A stretch of 35,628 bases of DNA from the NCBI GenBank assembly GCA_947588745.1, contig CANPYW010000021.1, positions 1-35,628 on the forward strand. Reading direction: 5' to 3'. This DNA comes from Candidatus Gastranaerophilales bacterium (lineage in GTDB: Bacteria > Cyanobacteriota > Vampirovibrionia > Gastranaerophilales > Gastranaerophilaceae). A model generated the notes under the pieces. The model was not told where the DNA came from and ran no database searches. It saw only the letters and a list, made by a program, of their open reading frames with translations. A program made the position numbers and the translations under genes. Below, in pieces: positions 21,834 through 24,451 of the stretch; positions within the stretch are counted from its first letter, which is position 1; every line of letters begins with the position of its first letter.

Positions 21834-21874
21834 TAAAAAAATAACAGACAGTTTTTAAAGATAAACTGTCTGTT
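21834..21874 (-). terminator. Terminator of the radical SAM gene (convergent with surE)
   Basis: A perfect 12-bp stem, AACAGACAGTTT (21843-21854) with AAACTGTCTGTT (21863-21874), has an 8-nt loop. On the minus strand it is followed by ATTTTTTTATT. It starts 10 nt after the radical SAM stop. For surE transcripts on the plus strand the downstream side is A-rich, so termination there would be weaker. Confidence 0.85.
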
Positions 21875-21884
21875 AAAAGAAAAA

Positions 21885-23291
21885 TTATTTTAATGCTTTT
21901 TTTGCTTCATTTTCAAGATTTACTTTATAAATAATTTTTGCCCGTTCGCATAAATATTCTGATTTACCAAAATTTTCACCGGCAAATCCTGGACAGCTAA
22001 AGCAGTATTCGCAATATTTTTCTTTATAGCAATCTTTCATATCTTTAAGTTTTAATTTTCTATAATTTGTTAATTCCTGACAATCACATGTACGCTCATG
22101 CCAAATATCCATTATAGAATTAGTTTTCAAATTACCAAGCTTTTTTTCATAAAAATGGCATATTACCACATCAAGATTAGGATTTACGGTAATTTTGCTT
22201 TGCCCCGCAATACAAATAGGATTTTCAAACACAGCTTTATCTGATAAATCAAACTGTTTGGGGAAATTATTACCTGTTATTTCAGTATAACTTCTATATA
22301 TTTTTTCTAACTGTTCACTCTTAACAGCAACATGAGAATTATTATTCTCCGGATTATTATAAAACTTATCATCAAACAAGAAAAAGTTTACATTATTTTC
22401 TCTTATCCATTTTTCAAGCTGAGAAAATTCATTACAATTATATTGCGTTATAAAATGTTTAATTTCCGTATGGATTTTTAGAGCTGACAATTTTTGGATT
22501 ACAGATAAAGTTTTATGTAAAGAACCTTTCATACCTGTTATCTTATCATGTATTTCCGGATTCAAACTGAATACGGTAAAACTGACTTTTTCCGGATACA
22601 AATTTACCACTTCATTAAATAATTCTTCATTATCATATAAATTTATTCCGTTTGTAAGTATAATAAGATTTATCCGTTTTTCTCTGACATATTTTGCTAT
22701 TTTTAGAAAATCTTTAGCAGTAGTGCATTCTCCACCTGTTAAGGAAACGGAAAATAAACCGTTATCATAAGCTTCATCAATAACAGGTTTTATATCTTCA
22801 AATGATATTTCATAATCCATCATATTTTTATGGTTATAGCAGTGCAGACAGTTTTGATTACATTTATATGTTAAAGCCAAATTCAAATTTGAAAGCACCT
22901 TGTGCTGTTCCTGCCAGGTCTGCATTTTTCTTTCTATAGTACCATTTATGCAGTTTACTTCATCATCATTAACGGCACAACCTTTATTTGTAATTTCTTT
23001 TAAGGACATTTTTTGATTCATTTTATCCGTTATTAATAATTCTTCTTGTAATTCAGATAAGAAATTATCTAAATCCGCTTGAGACTCTCCGTTTTTATTT
23101 GCAAATTCAAGAATTTTATCATAAGTTTCATTATTTATTATCATTTTCCAAATTAAAGCGGAAATATCTTTCAGCAAATAATATCTTGTATTAAGTTCAT
23201 TTCTAATAAATGCCGTGAGTTCACCATCCATATCATATATGTTGGTAGCACACCATTTTGCTATTTCATAATTTTTTTCTTTTAAATTCAT
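21885..23291 (-). CDS. Radical SAM/SPASM peptide-modifying enzyme with N-terminal PqqD-like (RRE) domain
   Basis: Counting from ATG 23291, residues about 18-90 look like a PqqD-type RiPP recognition element: short strands, then 'YYLLKDISALIWKMI' and a helical 'LDNFLSELQEELLI'. The radical SAM core carries CNQNCLHC (Cys144, Cys148, Cys151) for the catalytic 4Fe-4S cluster and the SAM motif TGGE. A C-terminal SPASM domain supplies ligands for auxiliary clusters: a Cys in 'ICIAGQ', one in 'VVICHF', then CDC and 'CEYCFSCPGF' and a final Cys. Such enzymes install thioether, C-C or epimer modifications on ribosomal peptides. The 52-residue Cys-rich peptide gene lies immediately upstream, its presumed substrate. 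A GTG at 23297 is inside the AAGGAG ribosome binding site, so ATG 23291 is used. A terminator follows. Confidence 0.88.
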   Translation of the reverse strand: MNLKEKNYEIAKWCATNIYDMDGELTAFIRNELNTRYYLLKDISALIWKMIINNETYDKILEFANKNGESQADLDNFLSELQEELLITDKMNQKMSLKEITNKGCAVNDDEVNCINGTIERKMQTWQEQHKVLSNLNLALTYKCNQNCLHCYNHKNMMDYEISFEDIKPVIDEAYDNGLFSVSLTGGECTTAKDFLKIAKYVREKRINLIILTNGINLYDNEELFNEVVNLYPEKVSFTVFSLNPEIHDKITGMKGSLHKTLSVIQKLSALKIHTEIKHFITQYNCNEFSQLEKWIRENNVNFFLFDDKFYNNPENNNSHVAVKSEQLEKIYRSYTEITGNNFPKQFDLSDKAVFENPICIAGQSKITVNPNLDVVICHFYEKKLGNLKTNSIMDIWHERTCDCQELTNYRKLKLKDMKDCYKEKYCEYCFSCPGFAGENFGKSEYLCERAKIIYKVNLENEAKKALK

Positions 23292-23302
23292 ATACACTCC
23301 TT

Positions 23303-23347
23303 ATATAATACGTAATGTTTCTTAATAACAAACATTACGTATTATAT
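23303..23347 (-). promoter_or_regulatory. Perfect 18-bp intercistronic hairpin before the radical SAM gene
   Basis: Arms 23303-23320 and 23330-23347 are perfectly complementary around a 9-nt loop. On the minus strand the stem base is followed at once by AAGGAG, the ribosome binding site of the radical SAM gene. There is no T-tract, so it is not a standard terminator. It could protect the precursor mRNA, lower expression of the enzyme relative to the peptide, or limit ribosome access. Confidence 0.7.
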
Positions 23348-23361
23348 GAATATTAAGTTTA

Positions 23362-23520
23362 TTATTGTGAAGCACCTCCGCAGCAACATGATCCACCCAT
23401 ACCATATTTTGAACAGCCACCGGCATATGTAGATACTCCGCCTTGGATGACTAGACGTGAAGCTTGATTTGATTTTAAATAAATTTTTAACTTACTGTTA
23501 ACATTTTTTTGTTGATTCAT
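23362..23520 (-). CDS. Putative RiPP precursor peptide, 52 aa, Gly/Cys-rich core
   Basis: ATG 23520 follows AAAGGA at 7-nt spacing, and TAA is at 23364-23362. The N-terminal ~28 residues are hydrophilic and helical-looking (MNQQKNVNSKLKIYLKSNQA, then SRLVIQGG), as expected of a leader. The C-terminal half (residues about 29-52) is Gly-rich and holds all four cysteines: Cys36 and a Cys45-Cys46-Cys47 triplet, in 'GGCSKYGMGGSCCCGGASQ'. The gene starts 13 nt after the ATP-grasp gene and precedes the RRE-radical SAM enzyme, which strongly suggests a modified peptide such as a sactipeptide or ranthipeptide. No known precursor family is recognised. A small metal-binding peptide is the alternative. 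Confidence 0.8.
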   Translation of the reverse strand: MNQQKNVNSKLKIYLKSNQASRLVIQGGVSTYAGGCSKYGMGGSCCCGGASQ

Positions 23521-23533
23521 TTTAATATCCTTT

Positions 23534-24451
23534 CTATTTAAGCTTTAGTTTATTACCGTAATATAAATCTTGATTTTCACCATAAAACGTTAGAAATCCC
23601 GAATATGGAGTAAATGTCATTTCACTTAAATATAGATTATTATATTTATTTATAGCAAAATCACACCTGACAAATTTAAAATTTGCCGAAAGTTTTTTTG
23701 AATATTCAAGCATTTCTGAGAGCCTATCCGGTTTTTTCATTACCAATGACCTGTAATTCCAATAAAAGGATAACCCAAAATCTAACGAATTCCAATCCGT
23801 ATCAAATGTATACTCTTCAAAAAATATTCCTTTGTTAACATGCAGATTATGTAGTCCGGCAATTATAAACTCCGGTATTCCGTTAAAACAATAGATTTGA
23901 TATATTTCCGTATCAAATCTGTCACCGTAATATTCTTCCGCAAAGACTTTCGGTACAATATTTTTATAATGAAGTTCATAATAACTCCAATATGCATAAT
24001 TAATTTTTAATGCTTGTCTAAAATAATCTTTATATTCGTTTAATTTTGGTAAAGTTATATTATTTTTATCCTCAACTAATATATTGGTACACCACGAATG
24101 ATTAGTTTTAATAACAAATGTATCGGGTAAATCAGAAAAATCTATATCATCAGCGGAATCAAATATTTTATACAGCTTTGCTGTTTTTAATTCCGGTATT
24201 CTTTCTTCTACATAAGATTTTAATAAAATTTTATCGGCTAATTTCGTCTTTTCCGGATTTGAATCGTATAATTTCAACCATTGCAATTTTTCCGATAATT
24301 TGTTCATACGTGAAAAATTCCAATTCAAATTTAGTTTATATACCTTTTTATATTTATATGACAAAACATATTTATAAAACCATAAAGGGCAAAGTTCGAA
24401 GAACTTATATCTTAGAAGATATTTTTTATCACTGTAGCTGCATTGAAGCAT
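23534..24451 (-). CDS. TupA-like ATP-grasp protein
   Basis: The 305-residue protein matches the ATPgrasp_TupA family (teichuronopeptide synthesis TupA-like). It has the N-terminal 'MNKLSEKLQWLKLYDSNPEKTKLADK', the ATP-binding 'LPDTFVIKTNHSW', 'PKVFAEEYYGD', 'YQIYCFNGIPEFI', and the Mg/ATP carboxylate region 'FVRCDFAINKYNNLYLSEMTFTPYSGF' with its Asp and Glu. Members ligate carboxylates to amines and are usually found in surface-glycan clusters. Here the gene directly precedes the Cys-rich peptide, whose ribosome binding site starts at its stop codon, so the two are co-transcribed. It may add an amino acid or other group to the peptide, or may be an unrelated glycan enzyme sharing the operon. 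GGAAAG precedes the ATG. Confidence 0.85.
   Translation of the reverse strand: MLQCSYSDKKYLLRYKFFELCPLWFYKYVLSYKYKKVYKLNLNWNFSRMNKLSEKLQWLKLYDSNPEKTKLADKILLKSYVEERIPELKTAKLYKIFDSADDIDFSDLPDTFVIKTNHSWCTNILVEDKNNITLPKLNEYKDYFRQALKINYAYWSYYELHYKNIVPKVFAEEYYGDRFDTEIYQIYCFNGIPEFIIAGLHNLHVNKGIFFEEYTFDTDWNSLDFGLSFYWNYRSLVMKKPDRLSEMLEYSKKLSANFKFVRCDFAINKYNNLYLSEMTFTPYSGFLTFYGENQDLYYGNKLKLK

Follow-up and report, generated by a model that had tools for sequence, protein, structure and literature searches.

Background

Graspetides with SPASM maturases are the known neighbours of the system reported here, as described in PMC8939145 and PMC13097080. The TupA-like ATP-grasp domain of Cj1438C is an experimentally shown amide ligase that acts on the carboxylate of glucuronate (PMC11800379). 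In one Melainabacteria genome, automatic annotation gave just one natural product cluster (PMC8600333). Here we describe a locus in which a TupA-like ATP-grasp gene, a gene for a 52-residue peptide and a gene for a radical S-adenosylmethionine (SAM)/SPASM enzyme lie side by side. It is located at positions 21885–24451 of a stretch of 35,628 nucleotides (hereafter the window), which is contig CANPYW010000021.1 (C21 in our numbering) of the 2.0 Mb genome of a Candidatus Gastranaerophilales bacterium (GCA_947588745.1).

We consider it fairly probable that the three genes form a cassette of the type that makes ribosomally synthesised and post-translationally modified peptides (RiPPs), that the peptide is the substrate of both the radical SAM enzyme and the ATP-grasp, and that the cassette is a member of a lineage-specific repertoire. 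The coordinates of the locus cover a small part of this larger repertoire of TupA-like ATP-grasps and hypervariable peptides. A literature search (titles and abstracts, with subscription papers mostly outside) returned nothing that links TupA-like ATP-grasps to peptide modification or describes the cassette family, and TupA, ATP-grasp and radical SAM were not found together in any paper. This agrees with the first-pass annotation, which knew of no described class that pairs a SPASM enzyme with a TupA-like ATP-grasp. In a wider sense the combination has a precedent: an ATP-grasp, a SPASM enzyme and a Cys-containing precursor are known together from Bacteroidetes graspetides, with another kind of ATP-grasp.

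The three genes in the window

The locus consists of three minus-strand open reading frames (ORFs; Table 1). The gap between ATP-grasp and peptide gene is 13 nt, and the gap between peptide and radical SAM gene is 70 nt. The ORF coordinates confirmed the gene set, strand, order and gaps as first noted.

Table 1. Coordinates of the features at the locus (positions in the window).
Feature	Position	Strand	Evidence
TupA-like ATP-grasp ligase, 305 aa, ATG start	23534..24451	-	PF14305 (ATPgrasp_TupA) 106.3 bits, cut-off 25
Candidate precursor peptide, 52 aa, MNQQKNVNSKLKIYLKSNQASRLVIQGGVSTYAGGCSKYGMGGSCCCGGASQ	23362..23520	-	ORF with AAAGGA ribosome-binding site at 23533-23528
Radical SAM/SPASM enzyme, 468 aa	21885..23291	-	ATG at 23291, GGAG at 23300-23297; Radical_SAM 71.4 bits, cut-off 29.5
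22-nt inverted repeat (95%)	23303..23347	-	Between peptide and radical SAM genes; repeat search
Intrinsic terminator-like hairpin	21842..21875	-	After radical SAM gene; 13 pairs, then T run

The ATP-grasp had rightly been read as TupA-like. PF14305 is its sole Pfam match and no NCBIfam model matches, so it does not fall under the graspetide synthetase type. Among solved structures, none matched the ATP-grasp profile below E 0.5. K115 and D264 are invariant in 26 aligned relatives and E277 is conserved in at least 90% of them; these three are candidates for the catalytic residues of ATP-grasp enzymes.

In the peptide, the N-terminal half is basic (KLKIYLK) and the C-terminal half is rich in Gly and Cys. 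There are four Cys, and neither Asp nor Glu is present. The earlier description as Gly/Cys-rich was appropriate: Gly and Cys make up 25% of the residues, and of the 8,936 ORFs of 30–80 residues in the loci examined, 41 attain this share (the window ORF probably being counted among them). The peptide has no match in Pfam or NCBIfam. Its gene lies directly after TupA, in the same position as the precursors of 26 radical-SAM cassettes.

The radical SAM enzyme has an alternative 470-residue form with a GTG start two codons upstream. Its CxxxCxxC motif is C144/C148/C151, and the seven SPASM Cys are C360, C378, C421, C427, C430, C433 and C448; all ten are invariant in 46 of 46 aligned relatives. The SPASM domain was borne out by Pfam (29.6 bits, cut-off 21.5), which also finds it in 38 of the 46 members. 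The closest solved structures are SkfB 6efn (3e-26) and 5wgg (7.6e-13), the latter presumably a ranthipeptide maturase. PADLOC gave solely viperin matches, which came from the radical SAM domain and were discarded.

The first-pass annotation had also assigned a PqqD-like N-terminus to this enzyme. A weak similarity is indeed present, and its scores are under the Pfam and NCBIfam cut-offs. The NCBIfam lasso PqqD model NF033536 matched one of 33 N-termini, that of the window (E 3.8e-4, 20.5 bits, cut-off 80). Pfam PqqD was found in four of the 46 members (best E 0.001), TbiB1 (5v1u) was hit at E 0.33 and ranked under unrelated matches, and a PqqD search of the whole source genome gave no match. 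A RiPP recognition element in the radical SAM enzyme is weakly supported by these scores.

Recurrence of the cassette in related genomes

A single-sequence scan with the radical SAM protein gave 20 pattern stretches and confirmed no relative, whereas an alignment query found relatives. These are mostly metagenome-assembled genomes (MAGs) of Candidatus Gastranaerophilales, many with isolate names starting with Lapin, and Candidatus Avigastranaerophilus faecigallinarum. Because two rows of the radical SAM tree (L033 and L162) are near-identical, we infer that the window's genus is the one that contains Avigastranaerophilus. The source genome has three copies of the radical SAM family. The family was detected at E ≤1e-60 in 19 of 41 genomes of the genus (at most five matches per genome, not all of them complete), and at E 1e-40 in 13 of 382 genomes of the class.

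A TupA-like gene on the same strand was found within 1.5 kb of 31 of 49 distinct radical SAM genes (48 loci). When the neighbours were clustered, TupA was the main recurrent partner (30 of 48 loci), and all 31 copies were on the same strand; the second was an unnamed protein at ten loci without TupA. Many of the radical SAM homologues adjoin a gene for a small Cys-containing peptide; the pattern that the first-pass annotation had named as refuting the RiPP reading, homologues that never adjoin such a gene, is thus not what is observed. As the gene pair and the peptide position recur in related genomes, the cassette in the window is more than chance. The first-pass interpretation as a RiPP operon is partly supported: support is good at the level of the family and reasonable for the window member.

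The loci fall into three classes. Class A has an acidic leader and TupA, class B is deeper and has a basic leader and TupA, and class C has a radical SAM gene and a peptide without TupA. Of the 18 radical SAM genes without a near TupA, 17 are class C and one is at a contig end. Ten class C loci (L016, L032, L044, L049, L050, L053, L054, L056, L057, L059) share a protein of about 300 residues with a KGGG motif; three of its ten members were run against the models, none scoring over a curated cut-off. The peptides at these ten loci include the type MLKITK...GCG......CGI.A..G.

Conserved leaders and variable cores

At many loci with both radical SAM and TupA, a small ORF lies right after TupA, with the leader xxIENLSxxEIxELYxDIIE and a core that is different each time. 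In the 24 precursors collected first, none of 682 leader residues was Cys, compared with 53 of 596 core residues. Cys was present in the core of 23 of the 24; in the remaining one, the core lies in another frame. Hence, in class A the leader profile recurs, the cores vary (best core pair score 0.54, next 0.33) and Cys is confined to the core, which is the pattern of a conserved leader with a variable core. One locus with both enzymes (L046) yielded no precursor.

A leader profile trained on these 24 radical-SAM-cassette peptides identified 37 untrained ORFs downstream of TupA and three among 3,011 other small ORFs. After one iteration, 73 of 98 distinct TupA ORFs had an acidic-leader ORF immediately after them. 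The 98 comprise the best-match loci and 59 chosen regions, with fragments down to 100 residues included; because regions were selected, 73 of 98 is not the rate of a random sample. About 3,009 other small ORFs gave four further matches, which resemble additional precursors. None of 32 control TupA ORFs, taken from 30 loci of other genera or of viral contigs, had an acidic-leader ORF. A strict regular expression had found acidic leaders at 16 of the 98; it was replaced by the hidden Markov model (HMM), from which all counts are taken.

The 73 pairs divide into 26 with a radical SAM gene within 600 nt and 47 without one within this distance in the stretch examined. In the 59 regions, a peptide gene comes after many of the TupA copies that lack radical SAM, usually within 30 nt; its product also has the acidic leader, and its core is longer and rich in Cys and Tyr.

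The TupA-like family is present at E ≤1e-20 in 34 of the 41 genus genomes. There were ten matches in the source genome, 50 in G142 and 57 in G408; for the latter two, the true number may be lower or higher, as some matches are gene pieces at contig ends and not all candidates were scored. Of the 39 TupA ORFs examined in these two genomes (L193-L205, L219-L244), 36 are followed by an acidic-leader peptide. Several of their TupA loci are at contig ends, as if repeats break the assembly. Among the 382 genomes of the class, 39 match the leader profile at E 0.01. Twelve of these are in the genus, with values down to 1e-13; the 27 outside it are never better than 1.6e-5 and are mostly inside long frames.

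Placement of the window cassette

The TupA and radical SAM trees are both quick trees. All 40 TupA-linked radical SAM rows are in one clade of 46 rows, with a Shimodaira–Hasegawa-like approximate likelihood ratio (SH-aLRT) of 98; the other six rows have no TupA within 1 kb in the stretch examined. Class A and these six form a group of 39 rows (support 97), while class B is not one group in this tree. Class C relatives outside the clade come from Clostridia, a spirochaete, an Erysipelotrichaceae MAG, a Christensenella MAG and other Gastranaerophilaceae. In the TupA tree, the window row is within an eight-row class B clade (SH-aLRT 98), and its closest row is the copy on contig C2 of the same genome (support 86). 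The peptides of classes B and C have short basic leaders. We read this as an older system of radical SAM and basic leader that may have gained a TupA partner (class B) and then adopted the acidic leader (class A).

Parity of Cys

The number of Cys was counted on the whole peptides of the 73 pairs, because the iterated HMM enters the core in some of them. Of the 47 peptides with TupA only, 44 have an even and three an odd number of Cys (p 1.2e-10 compared with a coin toss). Among the 26 with a radical SAM gene nearby, 11 have an even and 14 an odd number, and one has no Cys. The difference between the two sets is significant by Fisher test (p 5.6e-6), although shared ancestry of the peptides could inflate these p-values, even with cores as different as these. 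Cut by the iterated HMM, the numbers were 36 even and 11 odd without radical SAM, and 10 and 14 with it. The contrast hints that TupA-only peptides end up disulfide-bonded and that radical-SAM-associated ones may use single Cys in other links.

Proposed explanation

We propose that the 52-residue peptide is the substrate of both enzymes. Its basic N-terminal half would be the leader that recruits them. The radical SAM/SPASM enzyme would modify the GGC...CCC region, most likely by thioether cross-links of Cys; the nearest solved relatives and the Cys enrichment point to this chemistry as the probable radical SAM step. The TupA-like ATP-grasp would use ATP to form an amide bond on this peptide as well. 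The carboxylate could be the C-terminus of the peptide, or it could be that of an outside molecule (an amino acid, for example) coupled to an amine of the peptide. Since the acidic leader adjoins TupA whether or not a radical SAM gene is present, the ATP-grasp may be the enzyme that reads the leader in class A. The cassette would thus be one member of a lineage-specific repertoire of TupA-like ATP-grasps and hypervariable Cys-rich peptides, and its product would most likely be exported and serve interactions with the host or with other microbes.

A wider reading is more tentative, and we put it somewhat short of an even chance. TupA-like ATP-grasps would be a new kind of RiPP-modifying enzyme, and dozens of pairs in a genus of gut Melainabacteria would make an arsenal of modified Cys-rich peptides private to it, disulfide-knotted where TupA is alone and cross-linked where a radical SAM enzyme is added. 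The window would then be a relic from before the acidic leader. Our estimate was lowered because acidic-leader peptides without adjacent TupA exist.

If the explanation holds, the large family of TupA-like ATP-grasps gains a role in peptide modification, and a gut lineage for which little natural-product literature was found carries dense pairs of enzymes and hypervariable peptides. The pairing, the leader shared by loci with and without radical SAM and the contrast in Cys parity offer direct and cheap tests of the role of each enzyme.

Several observations weigh against the proposed explanation. For the window peptide, no convincing homologue was found in the 41 genus genomes. Matches at E 0.19–0.24 (three genomes) and 0.004–0.06 (two genomes) were chance-like, and three of these five contain stops. 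Class B leave-one-out profiles recovered two of eight peptides well and missed the window peptide and two others; for the window peptide, the profile was that of the other seven. The motif KL.[IF].{0,2}K is present in all eight class B peptides and in 71 of 8,936 background ORFs, and it was picked after inspection. For the radical SAM enzyme, the window row has a long basal branch in the 46-row clade and its placement is unsure, its N-terminus scores 15.1 bits with Pfam PqqD (cut-off 23.4), and in the sister cassette on C2 of the source genome a stop interrupts the radical SAM frame. Neighbour clustering of the radical SAM loci found no recurrent transporter or protease family.

On the same side stand the TupA ORFs and leaders that do not pair. 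By profile, 25 of the 98 TupA ORFs have no acidic-leader ORF. Eight of these are class B and two are near contig ends; the others may be polysaccharide enzymes. Conversely, there are 12 further acidic-leader ORFs. Two of them follow a TupA piece. Three are so close to a contig end (61–174 nt) that a TupA gene could be missing through truncation, whereas the other seven have more than 1 kb upstream without an adjacent TupA. Because of these seven, the acidic leader is typical of TupA partners and not exclusive to them. These 12 regions, mostly chosen as leader matches without a TupA match beside them, are outside all other counts.

Alternative explanations

In an unlikely scenario, which overlaps partly with the proposed explanation and is not exclusive of it, the TupA-like enzyme activates the uronic acid carboxylate of a surface polysaccharide and the peptide supplies the amine, giving a peptide-decorated capsule. 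The family precedent is amide formation on glucuronate (PMC11800379), some TupA homologues of other genera are in long frames (up to 763 residues) as in multidomain polysaccharide enzymes, and the window peptide offers Lys and N-terminal amines. No sugar gene family was recurrent in the neighbour clustering, however, and one enzyme per unique peptide exceeds what a general conjugating enzyme needs. It is rather improbable that the radical SAM enzyme acts by itself to give a product of the sactipeptide or ranthipeptide type, with the ATP-grasp unrelated or a helper. The closest solved structures, the sactipeptide maturase SkfB and 5wgg, would fit, as would class C with its peptides and radical SAM genes without TupA and the acidic-leader peptides without adjacent TupA. 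This reading leaves unaccounted for a same-strand TupA near 31 of the 49 relatives and a leader that adjoins TupA with and without radical SAM.

That the 52-residue ORF is a chance frame and the true substrate is encoded elsewhere is very unlikely in our view. Its sequence is a singleton, the leave-one-out profile misses it and acidic-leader peptides away from TupA do occur in the genus; against this, it has a ribosome-binding site, the 13-nt spacing, the post-TupA position of 26 class A cassettes and the rare Gly/Cys composition. The least probable explanation is a graspetide pathway of the Bacteroidetes type (grasp-with-spasm): the ATP-grasp would link Asp/Glu to Ser/Thr/Lys side chains by lactones or lactams, and the SPASM enzyme would add thioethers. 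Such a gene combination has already been described (branch 5 of PMC8939145 and group 14 of PMC13097080). The ATP-grasp of the window matches PF14305 only and no NCBIfam model. Moreover, with neither Asp nor Glu in its sequence, the window peptide cannot contain a graspetide link; its composition excludes this chemistry, and the ligase would have to use the C-terminal carboxylate or an outside one. This argument applies to the window and most of class B only, where six of eight peptides have no Asp/Glu from the first Cys on. Class A cores often have these residues (they are absent from the first Cys on in 8 of 24 peptides with radical SAM and 6 of 47 with TupA only), and by composition class A would stay compatible with graspetide chemistry.

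Further features and observations

The inverted repeat between the peptide and radical SAM genes folds at −23.6 kcal/mol (z −5.9) and fills much of the 70-nt gap. The longest perfect stem in this gap is 18 in the window, compared with 6–9 in six stretches of other loci. The hairpin is a possible attenuator or mRNA-processing element and could hold the enzyme level under the peptide level. The site after surE was compared in 30 loci with 0.7–1.5 kb after this gene. Radical SAM or TupA genes are there only in the window and one other genome, and the 1180-residue gene was not seen after surE in any of the 30.

In the sister class B cassette on C2 (G000:C2, L012:7079-9565), the frames of the ATP-grasp and of a Cys-rich peptide appear intact. 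At L014:85-1890 (G103), a radical SAM protein with a sub-cut-off match to a B12-binding domain follows a class B TupA gene. Two class A cassettes (L024, L043) are on short contigs labelled Bacilli and Clostridia, which may reflect misbinning or transfer. L055:7433-7815 (also L126) has two tandem acidic-leader precursors, each with a C-rich run at the junction of leader and core and the Cys core in another frame; slippage, decay or an assembly error could explain the break. Some of the seven acidic-leader peptides without TupA (L335, L341, L342, L343, L344) are in tandem, and three are in regions of radical SAM homologues without TupA.

Around the TupA/peptide pairs, one gene family is near TupA in 12 of 52 loci, ten of them on the same strand (L191, L199, L201, L202, L204, L205, L226, L230, L231, L234, L235, L236). 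Its L199 member is a peptidase U32 by Pfam, and the L191 member is under the cut-off. Genes for helix-turn-helix (HTH) regulators are beside pairs at L194-L199, L203, L219 and L222; Pfam confirmed the HTH in the six regulators tested, one of which has an S24 peptidase domain. At L192:3375-6488, a TupA-like gene is followed by a GARS-type ATP-grasp gene and another radical SAM gene, possibly a different pathway. Distant TupA-like genes without a leader peptide are on 12 viral contigs (L263-L274).

Comparison with known systems

Like the sactipeptide and ranthipeptide maturases (SkfB, AlbA, 5wgg), the window enzyme is radical SAM plus SPASM by profile, has a Cys-rich candidate substrate and shows a weak PqqD-like N-terminal region. 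It scores far under their equivalog cut-offs (AlbA 64.3, cut-off 850), and unlike them, its family has a TupA-like partner in 31 of 49 relatives; here the thioether would be a matter of analogy. In prochlorosins, many hypervariable cores stand behind a conserved leader in one genome and one enzyme serves many precursors. The repertoire described here resembles them in the number of such cores per genome and differs in that most precursors have their own ATP-grasp, with exceptions.

Cj1438C, the ligase of a capsule cluster, also has a TupA-like ATP-grasp, and amide formation is its shown activity (PMC11800379). There, the TupA-like domain is fused to a glycosyltransferase, whereas the partner of the window gene is a gene for a small variable peptide. 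The SPASM-maturase graspetides of Bacteroidetes (branch 5 of PMC8939145) likewise combine an ATP-grasp with a SPASM enzyme at one locus, and their precursors are diverse and contain Cys. Their synthetase joins Asp/Glu side chains to Ser/Thr/Lys, whereas the ATP-grasp of the window is TupA-like (PF14305) and its peptide is free of Asp and Glu.

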